A stretch of 35,260 nt of DNA from Acholeplasmataceae bacterium (GTDB taxonomy: Bacteria; Bacillota; Negativicutes; Acidaminococcales; Acidaminococcaceae), in contig JAAYVM010000054.1 in the NCBI GenBank assembly GCA_012517145.1, positions 1 to 35,260 of the forward strand, in the 5' to 3' direction. Below, piece by piece: positions 16,531 to 21,210 of the stretch (position 1 is its first letter; every line of letters starts with the position of its first letter). Position numbers and translations under genes: made by a program. The notes below the pieces were generated by a model. The model saw only the letters and a program-made list of their open reading frames with translations, did not search any database and was not told where the DNA came from.

Positions 16531-17055
16531 ATGAAAAAAATTTTGATTCTTGTCTTTCTACTTTGCTTATTCCCTTTATCATGTCTGGCAAAGCCTGTAA
16601 TAAAGTGTGATAAGCAGACATTCGATCCCCTAACAACCACATATTATCTGGAAGGCAATGTTTCCGTTGATACAGGCAGCCGGTTAATTACTGCCAACAG
16701 AGCACAAGTTGAACTATACTCGCTGGAAGTATACGCAGAAGGCAATGTAAATCTTACGCAGGATAACATGGTTTTTACCGGTGATACTGTTCATGTTTAC
16801 GGCAGTCGGAAAACGGCAGTAGTAGAAGGTGATATTAACTTCAGCGATGGCAGTACCACAATTACAGCTTCCAAAGGCTCTTTTAATTGGGCTACAAAAG
16901 ATGCTGTTTTTGAAGGAAATGTTCTGATAAATGCCGATTCATCTTCCTTCACCGGAACAACGCAAAATCTCTTGCTAACCAATAAAAACGAATCCGGTCA
17001 AATTACAACCAATAAAATAATCTACAATGTGCGAACCAAAAAGTTCCATGAGTAA
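16531..17055 (+). CDS. LptA/OstA-like periplasmic protein
   Basis: A 174-residue protein with a cleavable signal peptide (MKKILILVFLLCLFPLSCLA, cleavage probably after A20), followed by one OstA/LptA-type domain built of repeated beta strands. The repeats include YYLEGNVSVDTGSRLITANR, VYAEGNVNLTQDNMVFTGD, AVVEGDINFSDGSTTI and AVFEGNVLINADSSSFTG. LptA bridges the periplasm and carries LPS to the outer membrane, so its presence in a Firmicute-type neighbourhood points to a diderm organism. It is the only plus-strand protein gene in the window. It is divergent from dnaG and convergent with ppsR. In Bacillus the corresponding gap holds yqxD. Whether this is the main LptA or a paralogue cannot be told here; no lptB or lptC is adjacent. 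Confidence 0.8.
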   Translation: MKKILILVFLLCLFPLSCLAKPVIKCDKQTFDPLTTTYYLEGNVSVDTGSRLITANRAQVELYSLEVYAEGNVNLTQDNMVFTGDTVHVYGSRKTAVVEGDINFSDGSTTITASKGSFNWATKDAVFEGNVLINADSSSFTGTTQNLLLTNKNESGQITTNKIIYNVRTKKFHE

Positions 17056-17099: not shown

Positions 17100-17948
17100 C
17101 TAACGATTTATATTTTTGGCTGCATACTCCAGAATCAAGCCAGCTGTTTCTTCGACAGCCCTATTTGACACATTGATAATTTTACAATGTATTCTGCGCA
17201 TGATTGCTTTGGCATATTCCAATTCTTCGTTAATACGATTTACATCAGCGTAAGTCGCATCATCTGACAGTCCCATAGTTTTTAAGCGTTCAACGCGAAT
17301 TTCATTAAGTTTATACGGATCTATCAACAGGCCGATAACTTTGTGAGACGGAACCTTGAACAATTCCTCTGGCGGCGTTATTTCAGGTACCAGCGGTACA
17401 TTGGCAACTTTCAGCTGTTTGTGCGCCAGATACATGCTTAAAGGAGTCTTAGAAGTACGTGAAACACCAATAAGAACTATATCGGCTTTCGAAAGGCCCC
17501 AGGGATTTTTGCCGTCATCGTATTTGACCGCAAATTCAATAGCTTCGACACGCTTGAAATACTCGTGGTCAAGAGCATGGATGAGTCCAGGTTGATTTTT
17601 TGGCAATAGCCCTGATGTCTTCTCAATCGCTTTAAGCACAGGACCTATGATATCAACTACTTCAACGTTCTCTTCTTTTGCCTCGCTGGCAATTATTTCA
17701 CGTAATTCCGGAGATACTATTGTATGGCAAATTACAGCATTGTTTTCCTTGGCTTCTTTAACAATCGCATGAACCTGTTCTGCATCTCTTAGATATGGAA
17801 CACGGATAATATCAAATTTTTCCTGCACAAACTGGCTGATTGTTGCTTTTGCTACAGCCTCAGAAGTTTCGCCAATAGAATCGGAAACAGCATAAATTAT
17901 TGGTAAACTAGCTATGATAAATTCCCCCTTTGCCCTCTGCCAAGTCAA
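17100..17948 (-). CDS. ppsR: PEP synthase regulatory protein PpsR (DUF299 kinase/pyrophosphorylase)
   Basis: Bifunctional regulator that inactivates PEP synthase by ADP-dependent phosphorylation of a Thr and reactivates it by phosphate-dependent removal. Diagnostic parts are IIYAVSDSIGETSEAVA at the N-terminus, HTIVSPELR, GLIHALDHEYFKRVEAIEFA, and the P-loop ADIVLIGVSRTSKTPLSMYL. VPLVPEITPPEELF and LLIDPYKLNEIRVERLK follow. The end given is the only standard start codon in frame, a TTG that has no binding site and lies within the ccpN-like gene. A strong site, AAGGGGG (17924-17930), lies eight bases before ATA (17913-17915), which would give the family's usual N-terminal length. Its target enzyme, ppsA, is two genes upstream. 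Confidence 0.93.
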   Translation of the reverse strand: MTWQRAKGEFIIASLPIIYAVSDSIGETSEAVAKATISQFVQEKFDIIRVPYLRDAEQVHAIVKEAKENNAVICHTIVSPELREIIASEAKEENVEVVDIIGPVLKAIEKTSGLLPKNQPGLIHALDHEYFKRVEAIEFAVKYDDGKNPWGLSKADIVLIGVSRTSKTPLSMYLAHKQLKVANVPLVPEITPPEELFKVPSHKVIGLLIDPYKLNEIRVERLKTMGLSDDATYADVNRINEELEYAKAIMRRIHCKIINVSNRAVEETAGLILEYAAKNINR

Positions 17949-18570
17949 CCAGCAGTCTGGTAAAATTAGTCTTGGTAATCCTGCCTACGACTTCATAACA
18001 GTGCTTCTCTTCATTAATTGTTTTAACGACCGGCATACAATCGATCTCATTATCAATTAGACGTCTCGCGGCAGTTGCTACTGACTCTTCCGGTTTTGTG
18101 ACGATTAATTTTGATAGCGGTGTCATAACCATGACAATTGGTATATTTTGTAGGTCAGCGCCGTTGTTGATGGCTGTTTTCAATAAATCCTTGCGAGAAA
18201 CAACGCCTAAAAGAGTACTATTATCACCGACAACAAAAACTGTGCCGATATCCTCCAGAAACATGGTAACAACTGCGTCATATGCACTTTTATCATTGTG
18301 AATCCCGATAGGAACAGATTGAATATCACGCACGCAAATACCTGATATTTCTTCCATAAGCATACCCAAAGTATTTTTGCCAGTAAAATAATATCCAACT
18401 TTAGGCCGTGCATCCAATATACCGCTCATTACAAGAATTGCAAGATCCGAACGCAATGCGGCTCTTGTTACGTTTAATCTTTCTGCAATATGTTCGCCTG
18501 TAATAGGTCCGTCCTGACGAACGATTTCTGCAATTCGTTTCTGTCTATTGCTCAGAGAAATGTTACTCAC
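17908..18570 (-). CDS. ccpN: CcpN-like transcriptional repressor (HTH + two CBS domains)
   Basis: A 220-residue DNA-binding protein related to Bacillus CcpN, the repressor of gluconeogenic genes. A winged HTH occupies residues 1-65 (RQKRIAEIVRQDGPITGEHI, LNVTRAALRSDLAILVMSGI). Two CBS domains follow, with MFLEDIGTVFVVGDNSTLLG and SRKDLLKTAIN in the first and DNEIDCMPVVK in the second. The GTG start at 18568-18570 matches the family N-terminus (MSNISLSNRQ), although the AAGGA site is unusually close. As in Bacillus (ccpN-yqfL) it precedes the DUF299 gene and overlaps it. It probably senses adenine nucleotides through the CBS pair. Putative binding sites lie just upstream of itself and of ppsA. 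Confidence 0.88.
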   Translation of the reverse strand: MSNISLSNRQKRIAEIVRQDGPITGEHIAERLNVTRAALRSDLAILVMSGILDARPKVGYYFTGKNTLGMLMEEISGICVRDIQSVPIGIHNDKSAYDAVVTMFLEDIGTVFVVGDNSTLLGVVSRKDLLKTAINNGADLQNIPIVMVMTPLSKLIVTKPEESVATAARRLIDNEIDCMPVVKTINEEKHCYEVVGRITKTNFTRLLVDLAEGKGGIYHS

Positions 18571-18586: not shown

Positions 18587-18656
18587 AAATAGTGTATGCT
18601 TTATTATACGCTATTTGTCTAAAAAATCCTCTTTTTAAATAACTGATACACTAAAT
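18587..18656 (-). promoter_or_regulatory. ccpN upstream region with three copies of an ATAGTGTAT-type motif
   Basis: On the minus strand ATTTAGTGTATC lies at 18645-18656 and AAATAGCGTAT at 18606-18616. An inverted copy, AAATAGTGTAT on the plus strand, lies at 18587-18597. The last two form an inverted repeat around TATAAT (18603-18608), a likely -10 for ccpN. The same core overlaps the ppsA -10. This suggests autoregulation; no good -35 is seen. Confidence 0.5.
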
Positions 18657-18681: not shown

Positions 18682-18736
18682 AAAAAACACCCATACGCAA
18701 GTTGCCGTCTTTGGCTTGGCAACCTTTGCATGGGTG
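18682..18736 (-). terminator. Terminator of ppsA
   Basis: A long stem (CACCCATGCAAAGGTTGCC pairing with GGCAACTTGCGTATGGGTG, with few mismatches) is followed by TTTTTT on the minus strand, directly after the ppsA stop codon. Confidence 0.88.
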
Positions 18737-18753
18737 TAATTCTTTACTATAAA

Positions 18754-21126
18754 TTACCAGATAAGATCAGTGTCGTCAGCTTTGCCTTTGCCAGTCAAAG
18801 CATCTAACATGATACGCTGTTCAACTTGAGCTACCATTTTCTTGGTAAACTTCACGGTATCAGGATTTACTGACATACTATCAATACCATTTTTCACCAG
18901 GAATTCAGCAAACTCTGGATATACGCTTGGTGCTTGTCCACAGATTGAAACGGTCTTGCCATCTTTGTGAGCAACTTCAATCAAGTGTTTTATCGCACGG
19001 CGTACAGCAAGATTACGTTCGTCAAAGATATGGGAAACCGTATCATTGTCGCGGTCGCAGCCCAGTGTAAGCATTGTAAGGTCGTTGGAGCCTATTGAAT
19101 AACCATCGACATACTTGTTAAACTGATCAGCCAATATTATATTGGCAGGGATTTCAGCCATTAGCCATACTTTAAAGTCTTTGCCACGAGCAAGACCTTC
19201 TTGGGCCATCAGGTTTGTTACCTTTTCACATTCCTCAACACTGCGGCAGAAAGGTATCATAACATGCAAATTCTTAAGACCGAATTCTTCACGGACTTTG
19301 CGAACAGCTTTAATTTCCAATTTGAAAGCTTCTATATATTTTGGGTCGTAATAGCGGGAAGCTCCACGCCATCCTAAAAGCGCGCTCGGTTCATAAGGTT
19401 CGAATTCGTCGCCGCCTTTCAGGTCACGATACTCACTGGATTTGAAATCGCTGAATCTTAAAGTTACCGGGCGCGGTGCCATAGCCTGGCAAACCTGACG
19501 GAAGCCTTCTGCCAATTGGTCAACAACTTTTTCCGGGTGACCTGTTTTAATCAAATACAAAGGATGCTCATGAATGTAGGTTGTCCAGATAAATTCTTCA
19601 CGCATCAAGCCAATACCGTCACAAGGGAGAACCGAATATTTTTCAGCAAGCTCAGGATCACCAAGATTCATATAAATCTTAGTTCCAGTTACAGGGAAAG
19701 TTTCAGCAACAACTGCAGCGGCAGCTTCAGATTTTTTAGCGCTTTCAATAATACCTTCGTAAACAACACCGTTACTAGCATCTACCGTAATATCAATACC
19801 ATCTTTGATTGCGGTAGTAGCTGATTCTCCTCTGCTCTTTGTACCAACAATACATGGAATACCAAGCTCACGGCTGACAATAGATGCGTGGCAAGTCATG
19901 CCGCCTGAATCTGTTACTATTGCTTTAGCCTTCTTCATTGCCGGAACCCAATCCGGAGCAGTCATTTCGGTAACAAGGATTTCACCATCTTTAAATTCAT
20001 CAATGCGGGATGGATCAAGAATTACATGCGCACGGCCGGAAACCAATCCTGGGCTTGCAGGCAATCCTTTGACAATAACTTTACGGTCAGTAGTTATTTT
20101 TGCACTTTCCACTTTTTTGCCCTCTTCTTTATTACGGCGAGACCAAACGGTTTCCGGACGAGCTTGCAATATCCAGATTTTGTCAGTACGTTCGTCAATG
20201 CCCCATTCAATATCCATATAGCAGCCATAATGTTTTTCAATCTTTTTAGCATAGTTAGCCAGCTCAAGAATCTGCTCTGTAGTCAGGGTCTGTTTGTGGC
20301 GATTTTCTTCAGGCACAGGCTGTTCTTCGCAATCGCCGCCTTTTTTACGAACAAGCATTACATCTTGCTCGTTAACATTAGTTTCAATAATTTTATTGTC
20401 AGCTTTGGAAACTGTATAGTTATCAGGAGTTACGGTTCCTTGTACAACATATTCGCCAAGACCATAAGCAGCTTCAATCAGGATATTCTCGTCATTGCCG
20501 GTTGCCACATTGACAGTAAACATTACGCCAGCAGCCTTAGAGAACACCATCATTTGAATAACAGCGCTCAGAGCAACATCAAGGTGATCAAAGCCTTGTT
20601 TTTCTCTATAGTATACGGCGCGATCTGTGAAGCATGAAGCATAGCATTCCTTTACTTTTGCAATAACAGTTTCAGCACCTTGAACATTTAAATAAGTATC
20701 TTGCTGACCGGCAAAACTAGCATCAGGTAAATCTTCTGCAGTAGCACTGGAACGGACTGCAACAAAAGGCAGCTCCTCGCCGACTTTTTTTGCTAATTCA
20801 GCATAAGCCTCTGCAATTGCTTTCTGCAGATCATCAGGCATCTTTTCAGCCATGATAGCTGCACGCAGTTTAGCACTTACATCACGCAGCAAAGCGCTAT
20901 TCTCAACATCGGTAAGTTCTGCAAGCAGGGCTTCCATTTTTACCTTAAGGCCACTTTCCTCGATGAAATATCTATAAGCGTGTGCAGTTGTTGCAAAGCC
21001 GTAAGGAACGGGTACATCCGTCTTTGAAGTCATTTCTCCGAGAGAGGCTGATTTACCGCCGACTATGGAAACATCAGTTTTTTCTAACTGTTCAAACCAA
21101 AGTAGGAACTGTTCTTCCTTTTTCAT
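18754..21126 (-). CDS. ppsA: Phosphoenolpyruvate synthase PpsA
   Basis: Converts pyruvate + ATP to PEP + AMP + phosphate, the entry step of gluconeogenesis from pyruvate. At 790 residues it matches PEP synthase (about 790) rather than pyruvate phosphate dikinase (about 870). The N-terminal ATP-grasp domain has VGGKSASLGEM, VAVRSSATAEDLPDASFAGQ and MDIEWGID. The swivelling domain has DSGGMTCHASIVSRELGIPC, with the phosphorylated His and the neighbouring Thr that PpsR modifies. The C-terminal TIM barrel has MREEFIW, LRFSDFKSSEY and VSICGQAPS with the catalytic Cys. A binding site (AAAGGAG) precedes the ATG. It lies between glyS and ccpN, an insertion compared with Bacillus, and sits beside both of its likely regulators. 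Confidence 0.95.
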   Translation of the reverse strand: MKKEEQFLLWFEQLEKTDVSIVGGKSASLGEMTSKTDVPVPYGFATTAHAYRYFIEESGLKVKMEALLAELTDVENSALLRDVSAKLRAAIMAEKMPDDLQKAIAEAYAELAKKVGEELPFVAVRSSATAEDLPDASFAGQQDTYLNVQGAETVIAKVKECYASCFTDRAVYYREKQGFDHLDVALSAVIQMMVFSKAAGVMFTVNVATGNDENILIEAAYGLGEYVVQGTVTPDNYTVSKADNKIIETNVNEQDVMLVRKKGGDCEEQPVPEENRHKQTLTTEQILELANYAKKIEKHYGCYMDIEWGIDERTDKIWILQARPETVWSRRNKEEGKKVESAKITTDRKVIVKGLPASPGLVSGRAHVILDPSRIDEFKDGEILVTEMTAPDWVPAMKKAKAIVTDSGGMTCHASIVSRELGIPCIVGTKSRGESATTAIKDGIDITVDASNGVVYEGIIESAKKSEAAAAVVAETFPVTGTKIYMNLGDPELAEKYSVLPCDGIGLMREEFIWTTYIHEHPLYLIKTGHPEKVVDQLAEGFRQVCQAMAPRPVTLRFSDFKSSEYRDLKGGDEFEPYEPSALLGWRGASRYYDPKYIEAFKLEIKAVRKVREEFGLKNLHVMIPFCRSVEECEKVTNLMAQEGLARGKDFKVWLMAEIPANIILADQFNKYVDGYSIGSNDLTMLTLGCDRDNDTVSHIFDERNLAVRRAIKHLIEVAHKDGKTVSICGQAPSVYPEFAEFLVKNGIDSMSVNPDTVKFTKKMVAQVEQRIMLDALTGKGKADDTDLIW

Positions 21127-21170: not shown

Positions 21171-21210
21171 ATATAGTATACACTATATCACGTTTATGCT
21201 CGTTGTTCAA
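21171..21210 (-). promoter_or_regulatory. ppsA promoter with overlapping palindromic operator
   Basis: On the minus strand TTGAAC (21205-21210), 17 bases, TATAGT (21182-21187). The -10 is the left arm of an inverted repeat (21171-21188, ATATAGT-GTAT-ACTATAT) that extends over the predicted start of transcription. Its core ATAGTGTAT is shared with the ccpN upstream region, so it is the best candidate operator for the CcpN-like repressor. Confidence 0.7.

Follow-up and report, generated by a model that had tools for sequence, protein, structure and literature searches.

Predicted CcpN operators at the ppsA and ccpN promoters of an Acidaminococcaceae bacterium

In Bacillus the repressor CcpN takes adenylates as its signal through its CBS domains, and its binding site follows the consensus TRTGHYATAYW. 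No printed form of that consensus was found in open papers, and the comparison made below rests on Bacillaceae promoters. The targets of Bacillus CcpN are gapB, pckA and sr1 (PMC8501984). For the Lactobacillales, a comparative genomics study predicts CcpN control of ccpN, ppdK and fbp (PMC3616900), so that autoregulation and control of a pyruvate-to-PEP enzyme have already been predicted there. Our literature search found no paper treating CcpN together with the Negativicutes. We describe here a locus from that class with a 12-bp palindrome over the -10 of ppsA and a doubled one-mismatch form of it over the -10 of ccpN, sites that we consider highly likely to be CcpN operators from their sequence, position and conservation.

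The window, meaning the whole 35,260-nucleotide stretch that was analysed, comes from a gut bacterium of the family Acidaminococcaceae, near Phascolarctobacterium. Its minus strand carries, in order, glyQ, glyS, ppsA, ccpN, ppsR, dnaG and rpoD. The ccpN gene (17908-18570, minus strand, GTG start) encodes 220 amino acids, with an HTH_11 domain (PF08279) followed by a CBS pair (two PF00571 stretches) that is matched by the solved YqzB chain 3fv6. An equivalog-level profile match (NCBIfam NF053704, 276.8 bits, cutoff 260) confirms the predicted product as the CcpN transcriptional repressor. It is orthologous to Bacillus subtilis CcpN (YqzB), at about 50% identity, and both are linked to ppsR. The ppsR gene (17100-17948, minus strand; PF03618, NF003742), for the PEP synthase regulatory kinase/pyrophosphorylase, adjoins ccpN here and in nearly all related loci, and with glyS, dnaG and rpoD nearby the context is the one typical of ccpN. 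The ppsA gene (18754-21126, minus strand) encodes a phosphoenolpyruvate synthase of 790 amino acids (PRK06464 and TIGR01418, above cutoff). An earlier, sequence-only reading of this DNA had seen a repressor, its probable target and the target's modifying enzyme as neighbours, and the profile matches bear out all three identities. A strong intrinsic terminator 3' of ppsA (18687-18737, minus strand; -28 kcal/mol, z -5.6, then a U run) lies between ppsA and ccpN, so that ccpN requires its own promoter in the window. On the opposite strand, in the interval between dnaG and ppsR, an open reading frame (16531-17055, plus strand) has LptA/LptD_N and OstA-like domains, fitting a diderm cell envelope.

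The sequence-only reading had built its putative CcpN operators on an 11-bp half-site, AWWTAGYGTAT, with three copies upstream of ccpN and the same core at ppsA. A pattern search of the window finds exactly these four and no others, at 18587-18597 (plus), 18606-18616 (minus), 18646-18656 (minus) and 21178-21188 (minus). The expected genome-wide signal did not appear: the half-site matches 18 times and the reversed control 17 times, and of the 14 half-site matches outside the window 9 fall inside open reading frames, so that it is little informative by itself and its enrichment was dropped as a claim. The informative unit is instead the 12-bp palindrome TAGTRTAYACTA, whose strict form is visible in the aligned promoters of relatives. 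A weight matrix was trained on the ppsA operators of other genomes only and applied to the window; genome-level counts for the window's own genome come from pattern searches, the matrix scan covering the window.

The top matrix score in the window, 27.3 bits, belongs to a full palindrome, TAGTATACACTA / TAGTGTATACTA, at 21174-21185. It overlaps the -10 of the ppsA promoter (21182-21210, minus strand), which consists of the -35 TTGAAC (21205-21210), a 17-bp spacer and the -10 TATAGT (21182-21187); both the palindrome and its position over the -10 had been noted earlier and are confirmed. The site thus stands at the -10 of a gluconeogenic gene, as expected of a CcpN operator, and in B. subtilis too the operator lies over or near the -10 and the targets are gluconeogenic. 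Across the family the ppsA promoters conserve a TTGAAT-type -35, the 17-bp spacer and TATAGT, which forms the left edge of the operator. Every one of the 36 family genomes with available sequence ahead of ppsA (9 + 27, the window among the 27) has the palindrome there, also where ppsA sits far from ccpN or on another contig. Beyond the family it precedes ppsA in 11 of 20 other Negativicutes, and the full palindrome is absent from ppsA in several ccpN-bearing families (f24, f6 and f30). One Phascolarctobacterium faecium genome (G032, locus L225) has two palindromes upstream of ppsA, 160 bp apart at 2596 and 2756, an arrangement that could allow looping or reflect a second promoter.

Upstream of ccpN, the second and third matrix hits of the window abut one another. 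Copy C, TAGTGTATGCTT (18590-18601, plus strand), has one mismatch to the palindrome and scores 12.4 bits (chance expectation 0.1 per 35 kb); copy B, TAGCGTATAATA (18602-18613, minus strand), also with one mismatch, scores 7.6 bits (chance expectation 0.5). By direct reading, the probable -10 of ccpN, TATAAT (18603-18608, minus strand), lies inside copy B and within the inverted repeat of 18587-18597 and 18606-18616, as previously described. That spaced repeat occurs once in the 2.47-Mb genome and was first taken for a split operator; the two abutting 12-mers describe the region better. No convincing -35 hexamer for ccpN was found in the window, and because none scores, the promoter scan gives no promoter there. 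G010 and G022, the two closest relatives, retain the abutting pair, in more degenerate form in G022. Read on the minus strand, copy C is AAGCATACACTA in the former and CAGCATATGCTA in the latter; copy B holds the same position in G010. Phascolarctobacterium has a single palindrome at about the place of copy B, and at ccpN of more distant relatives the palindrome is perfect.

The third copy is a half-site, ATTTAGTGTAT (18646-18656, minus strand); read as 18645-18656 it ranks eighth in the window with 0.9 bits and is not conserved in G010 or G022. Alone it is probably not an operator, so that of the operators first put forward the ppsA site and two ccpN copies stand and this one falls away. Four related loci have comparable half-sites, TTTAGTGTA, some 30 bp ahead of their palindrome. 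Also upstream of the ccpN operator is AAAAAGAGGATTTTTT (18621-18636, minus strand), which relatives conserve as AAAGAGGATTTTT and AAAAGGGTTTTT at a similar distance; it is unlike any -35.

The distribution of sites depends on gene order. Where ccpN is directly behind ppsA, as in Acidaminococcus-like genomes, it is usually without a site of its own. In the other arrangement, and in several families, the palindrome usually stands upstream of ccpN, complete or nearly so. This is the pattern expected with ccpN autoregulated in both arrangements. Conservation upstream of both genes in relatives, on which the first reading had made its motif depend, is found at all the family ppsA genes counted above and at most separately promoted ccpN genes.

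The same operator precedes other genes of pyruvate metabolism. In the window's genome the perfect palindromes are at ppsA, PFOR (pyruvate:ferredoxin oxidoreductase) and Dcu (C4-dicarboxylate transporter) genes; pckA, gapB and pyc, the targets anticipated from the sequence alone, are not among these sites. Within the family a site is found before the PFOR gene in 11 genomes, the window's included, and the PFOR promoters that were read conserve TTTACA-N17-TATACT, with the -10 in the right arm of the palindrome. It is found before acetate kinase (ackA) in seven, in an intergenic region common with a divergent gene; before malic enzyme in six; before Dcu in four, again with the window's; and before RnfC in three, among them the window's, where the site is near-perfect. 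Given this spread, CcpN probably controls pyruvate-linked flux in these organisms. The predicted CcpN regulon is the pyruvate node, and in the Acidaminococcaceae CcpN seems to control more than in Bacillus: ppsA is the predicted gluconeogenic target here and gapB and pckA are the targets there, and the predicted set extends to PFOR, acetate kinase, malic enzyme, Dcu and RnfC. It differs from the Lactobacillales set as well, with PEP synthase in place of pyruvate phosphate dikinase, and with PFOR, AckA, malic enzyme, Dcu and Rnf unreported in the available part of that study (PMC3616900).

The palindrome and the Bacillus-type site TRTGTTATACT have the right arm TATACT in common (TATACTA/TAGTATA in its longer form) and differ in the left arm; the even 12-bp palindrome is dominant here, TRTGTTATACT there. 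The outer arm TATACTA looks like a -10 hexamer, so promoter sequence could account for part of the similarity. Among 62 Bacillaceae ccpN promoters, 16 contain TAGTATATACTA/TAGTATATAATA, matching the palindrome with at most one mismatch, where random windows do so in 0.36% of cases; a Bacillus-type site, AGTATGACATA or AGTATAACA, often follows about 22 bp downstream. Bacillaceae pckA promoters likewise combine TRTGTTATACT with TAGTATAGACTA or a close variant of it. Both operator forms in one promoter point to one protein. The diverged specificity suggested by the sequence-only reading is thus mostly unneeded and finds little support, although a quantitative shift is possible, since the putative recognition helix is TRAALRSDL in most Negativicutes and TRATLRPDL in Bacillus, differing at two places. 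Scored with the Negativicutes matrix, the pckA and gapB promoters of Bacillaceae come out higher than those of gapA (p = 5e-6 and 9e-4, with relatedness ignored). In distant Bacilli with low CcpN identity no palindrome was found at ccpN, to which we give no weight for or against.

Several other explanations of the sites were weighed. The repeats might be mere AT-rich promoter sequence, with -10 hexamers on both strands and no regulator, as the motif contains TATACT, TATAGT and TATAAT and the half-site by itself shows no enrichment in the genome. This is extremely improbable: the 59 Acidaminococcaceae genomes hold 128 sites of the strict palindrome TAGTRTAYACTA against 14 for the reversed pattern of the same composition, about 9-fold (sums over a per-genome table, with within-family counts inflated by relatedness). 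Across genera, moreover, the palindrome is conserved at every base, and it is whole at both ppsA and PFOR, yet the -10 is its left arm at the one and its right arm at the other. We also think it unlikely that CcpN binds at ppsA while the ccpN sites are too degenerate and the window's ccpN is not autoregulated. Each of the two copies does have a mismatch and the third is only a half-site, but the pair ranks directly after the ppsA operator and is mutually abutting, and the doubled arrangement persists in the two nearest relatives (in weaker form in G022) and gives way to a perfect palindrome in more distant ones.

That the palindrome serves another regulator of pyruvate metabolism, ccpN being a target and not the gene of the binder, would suit a target set broader than the gluconeogenic targets of Bacillus CcpN and a form different from TRTGTTATACT. 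Against it, ccpN is the only regulator gene found repeatedly behind the site, and the palindrome stands beside the Bacillus-type site at Bacillaceae ccpN and occurs at Bacillus pckA. Motif counts outside the family follow the same line, with 145 palindromes against 107 for the control in 108 ccpN-bearing genomes and no excess (26 against 50) in 103 ccpN-less ones. All 31 ccpN-less Negativicutes tested lack a ppsA of this type, so that among them ccpN loss and PEP synthase absence coincide completely; in a family whose genomes mostly lack ccpN, three members that carry it have ppsA, two of them with the palindrome before it. We judge a different regulator distinctly unlikely, and these comparisons indicate that the sites are very probably those of CcpN.

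From the computed gene identities, sites, conservation, -10 position, regulon and co-occurrence we infer how CcpN binding, repression and signal would fit together. CcpN would bind TAGTRTAYACTA over the ppsA -10 and the doubled one-mismatch version over the ccpN -10, and, as a repressor covering the -10, would block promoter recognition or opening. PEP synthase would then be repressed and ccpN-ppsR autoregulated. By analogy with Bacillus, the signal may be adenylates through the CBS domains. As PpsR would regulate the PpsA enzyme, the pyruvate-to-PEP step would be controlled from one locus both in transcription and at the enzyme.

CcpN is known chiefly from Bacillus; the result adds a precise predicted operator and a short target list from a class that includes gut bacteria such as Phascolarctobacterium and Acidaminococcus and for which little transcriptional control is known. 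We lean slightly towards a broader proposal. In it, CcpN of the Negativicutes, instead of repressing gluconeogenesis in response to glucose, acts as the master switch for the pyruvate node as a whole, with PEP synthase, PFOR, acetate kinase, malic enzyme, dicarboxylate uptake and Rnf, and probably senses adenylates via its CBS domains. If so, energy metabolism linked to succinate, malate and pyruvate is governed by a protein whose name refers to catabolite control of gluconeogenesis. Many Negativicutes do not live on sugars, and in hosts that use little or no sugar the real signal of CcpN would become a testable question.

A second ccpN gene is present in some large Negativicutes genomes, such as G150 (L300 and L301) and G132 (L302). 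In G150 one lies behind glyS and the other behind ppsA, and the two may split duties.
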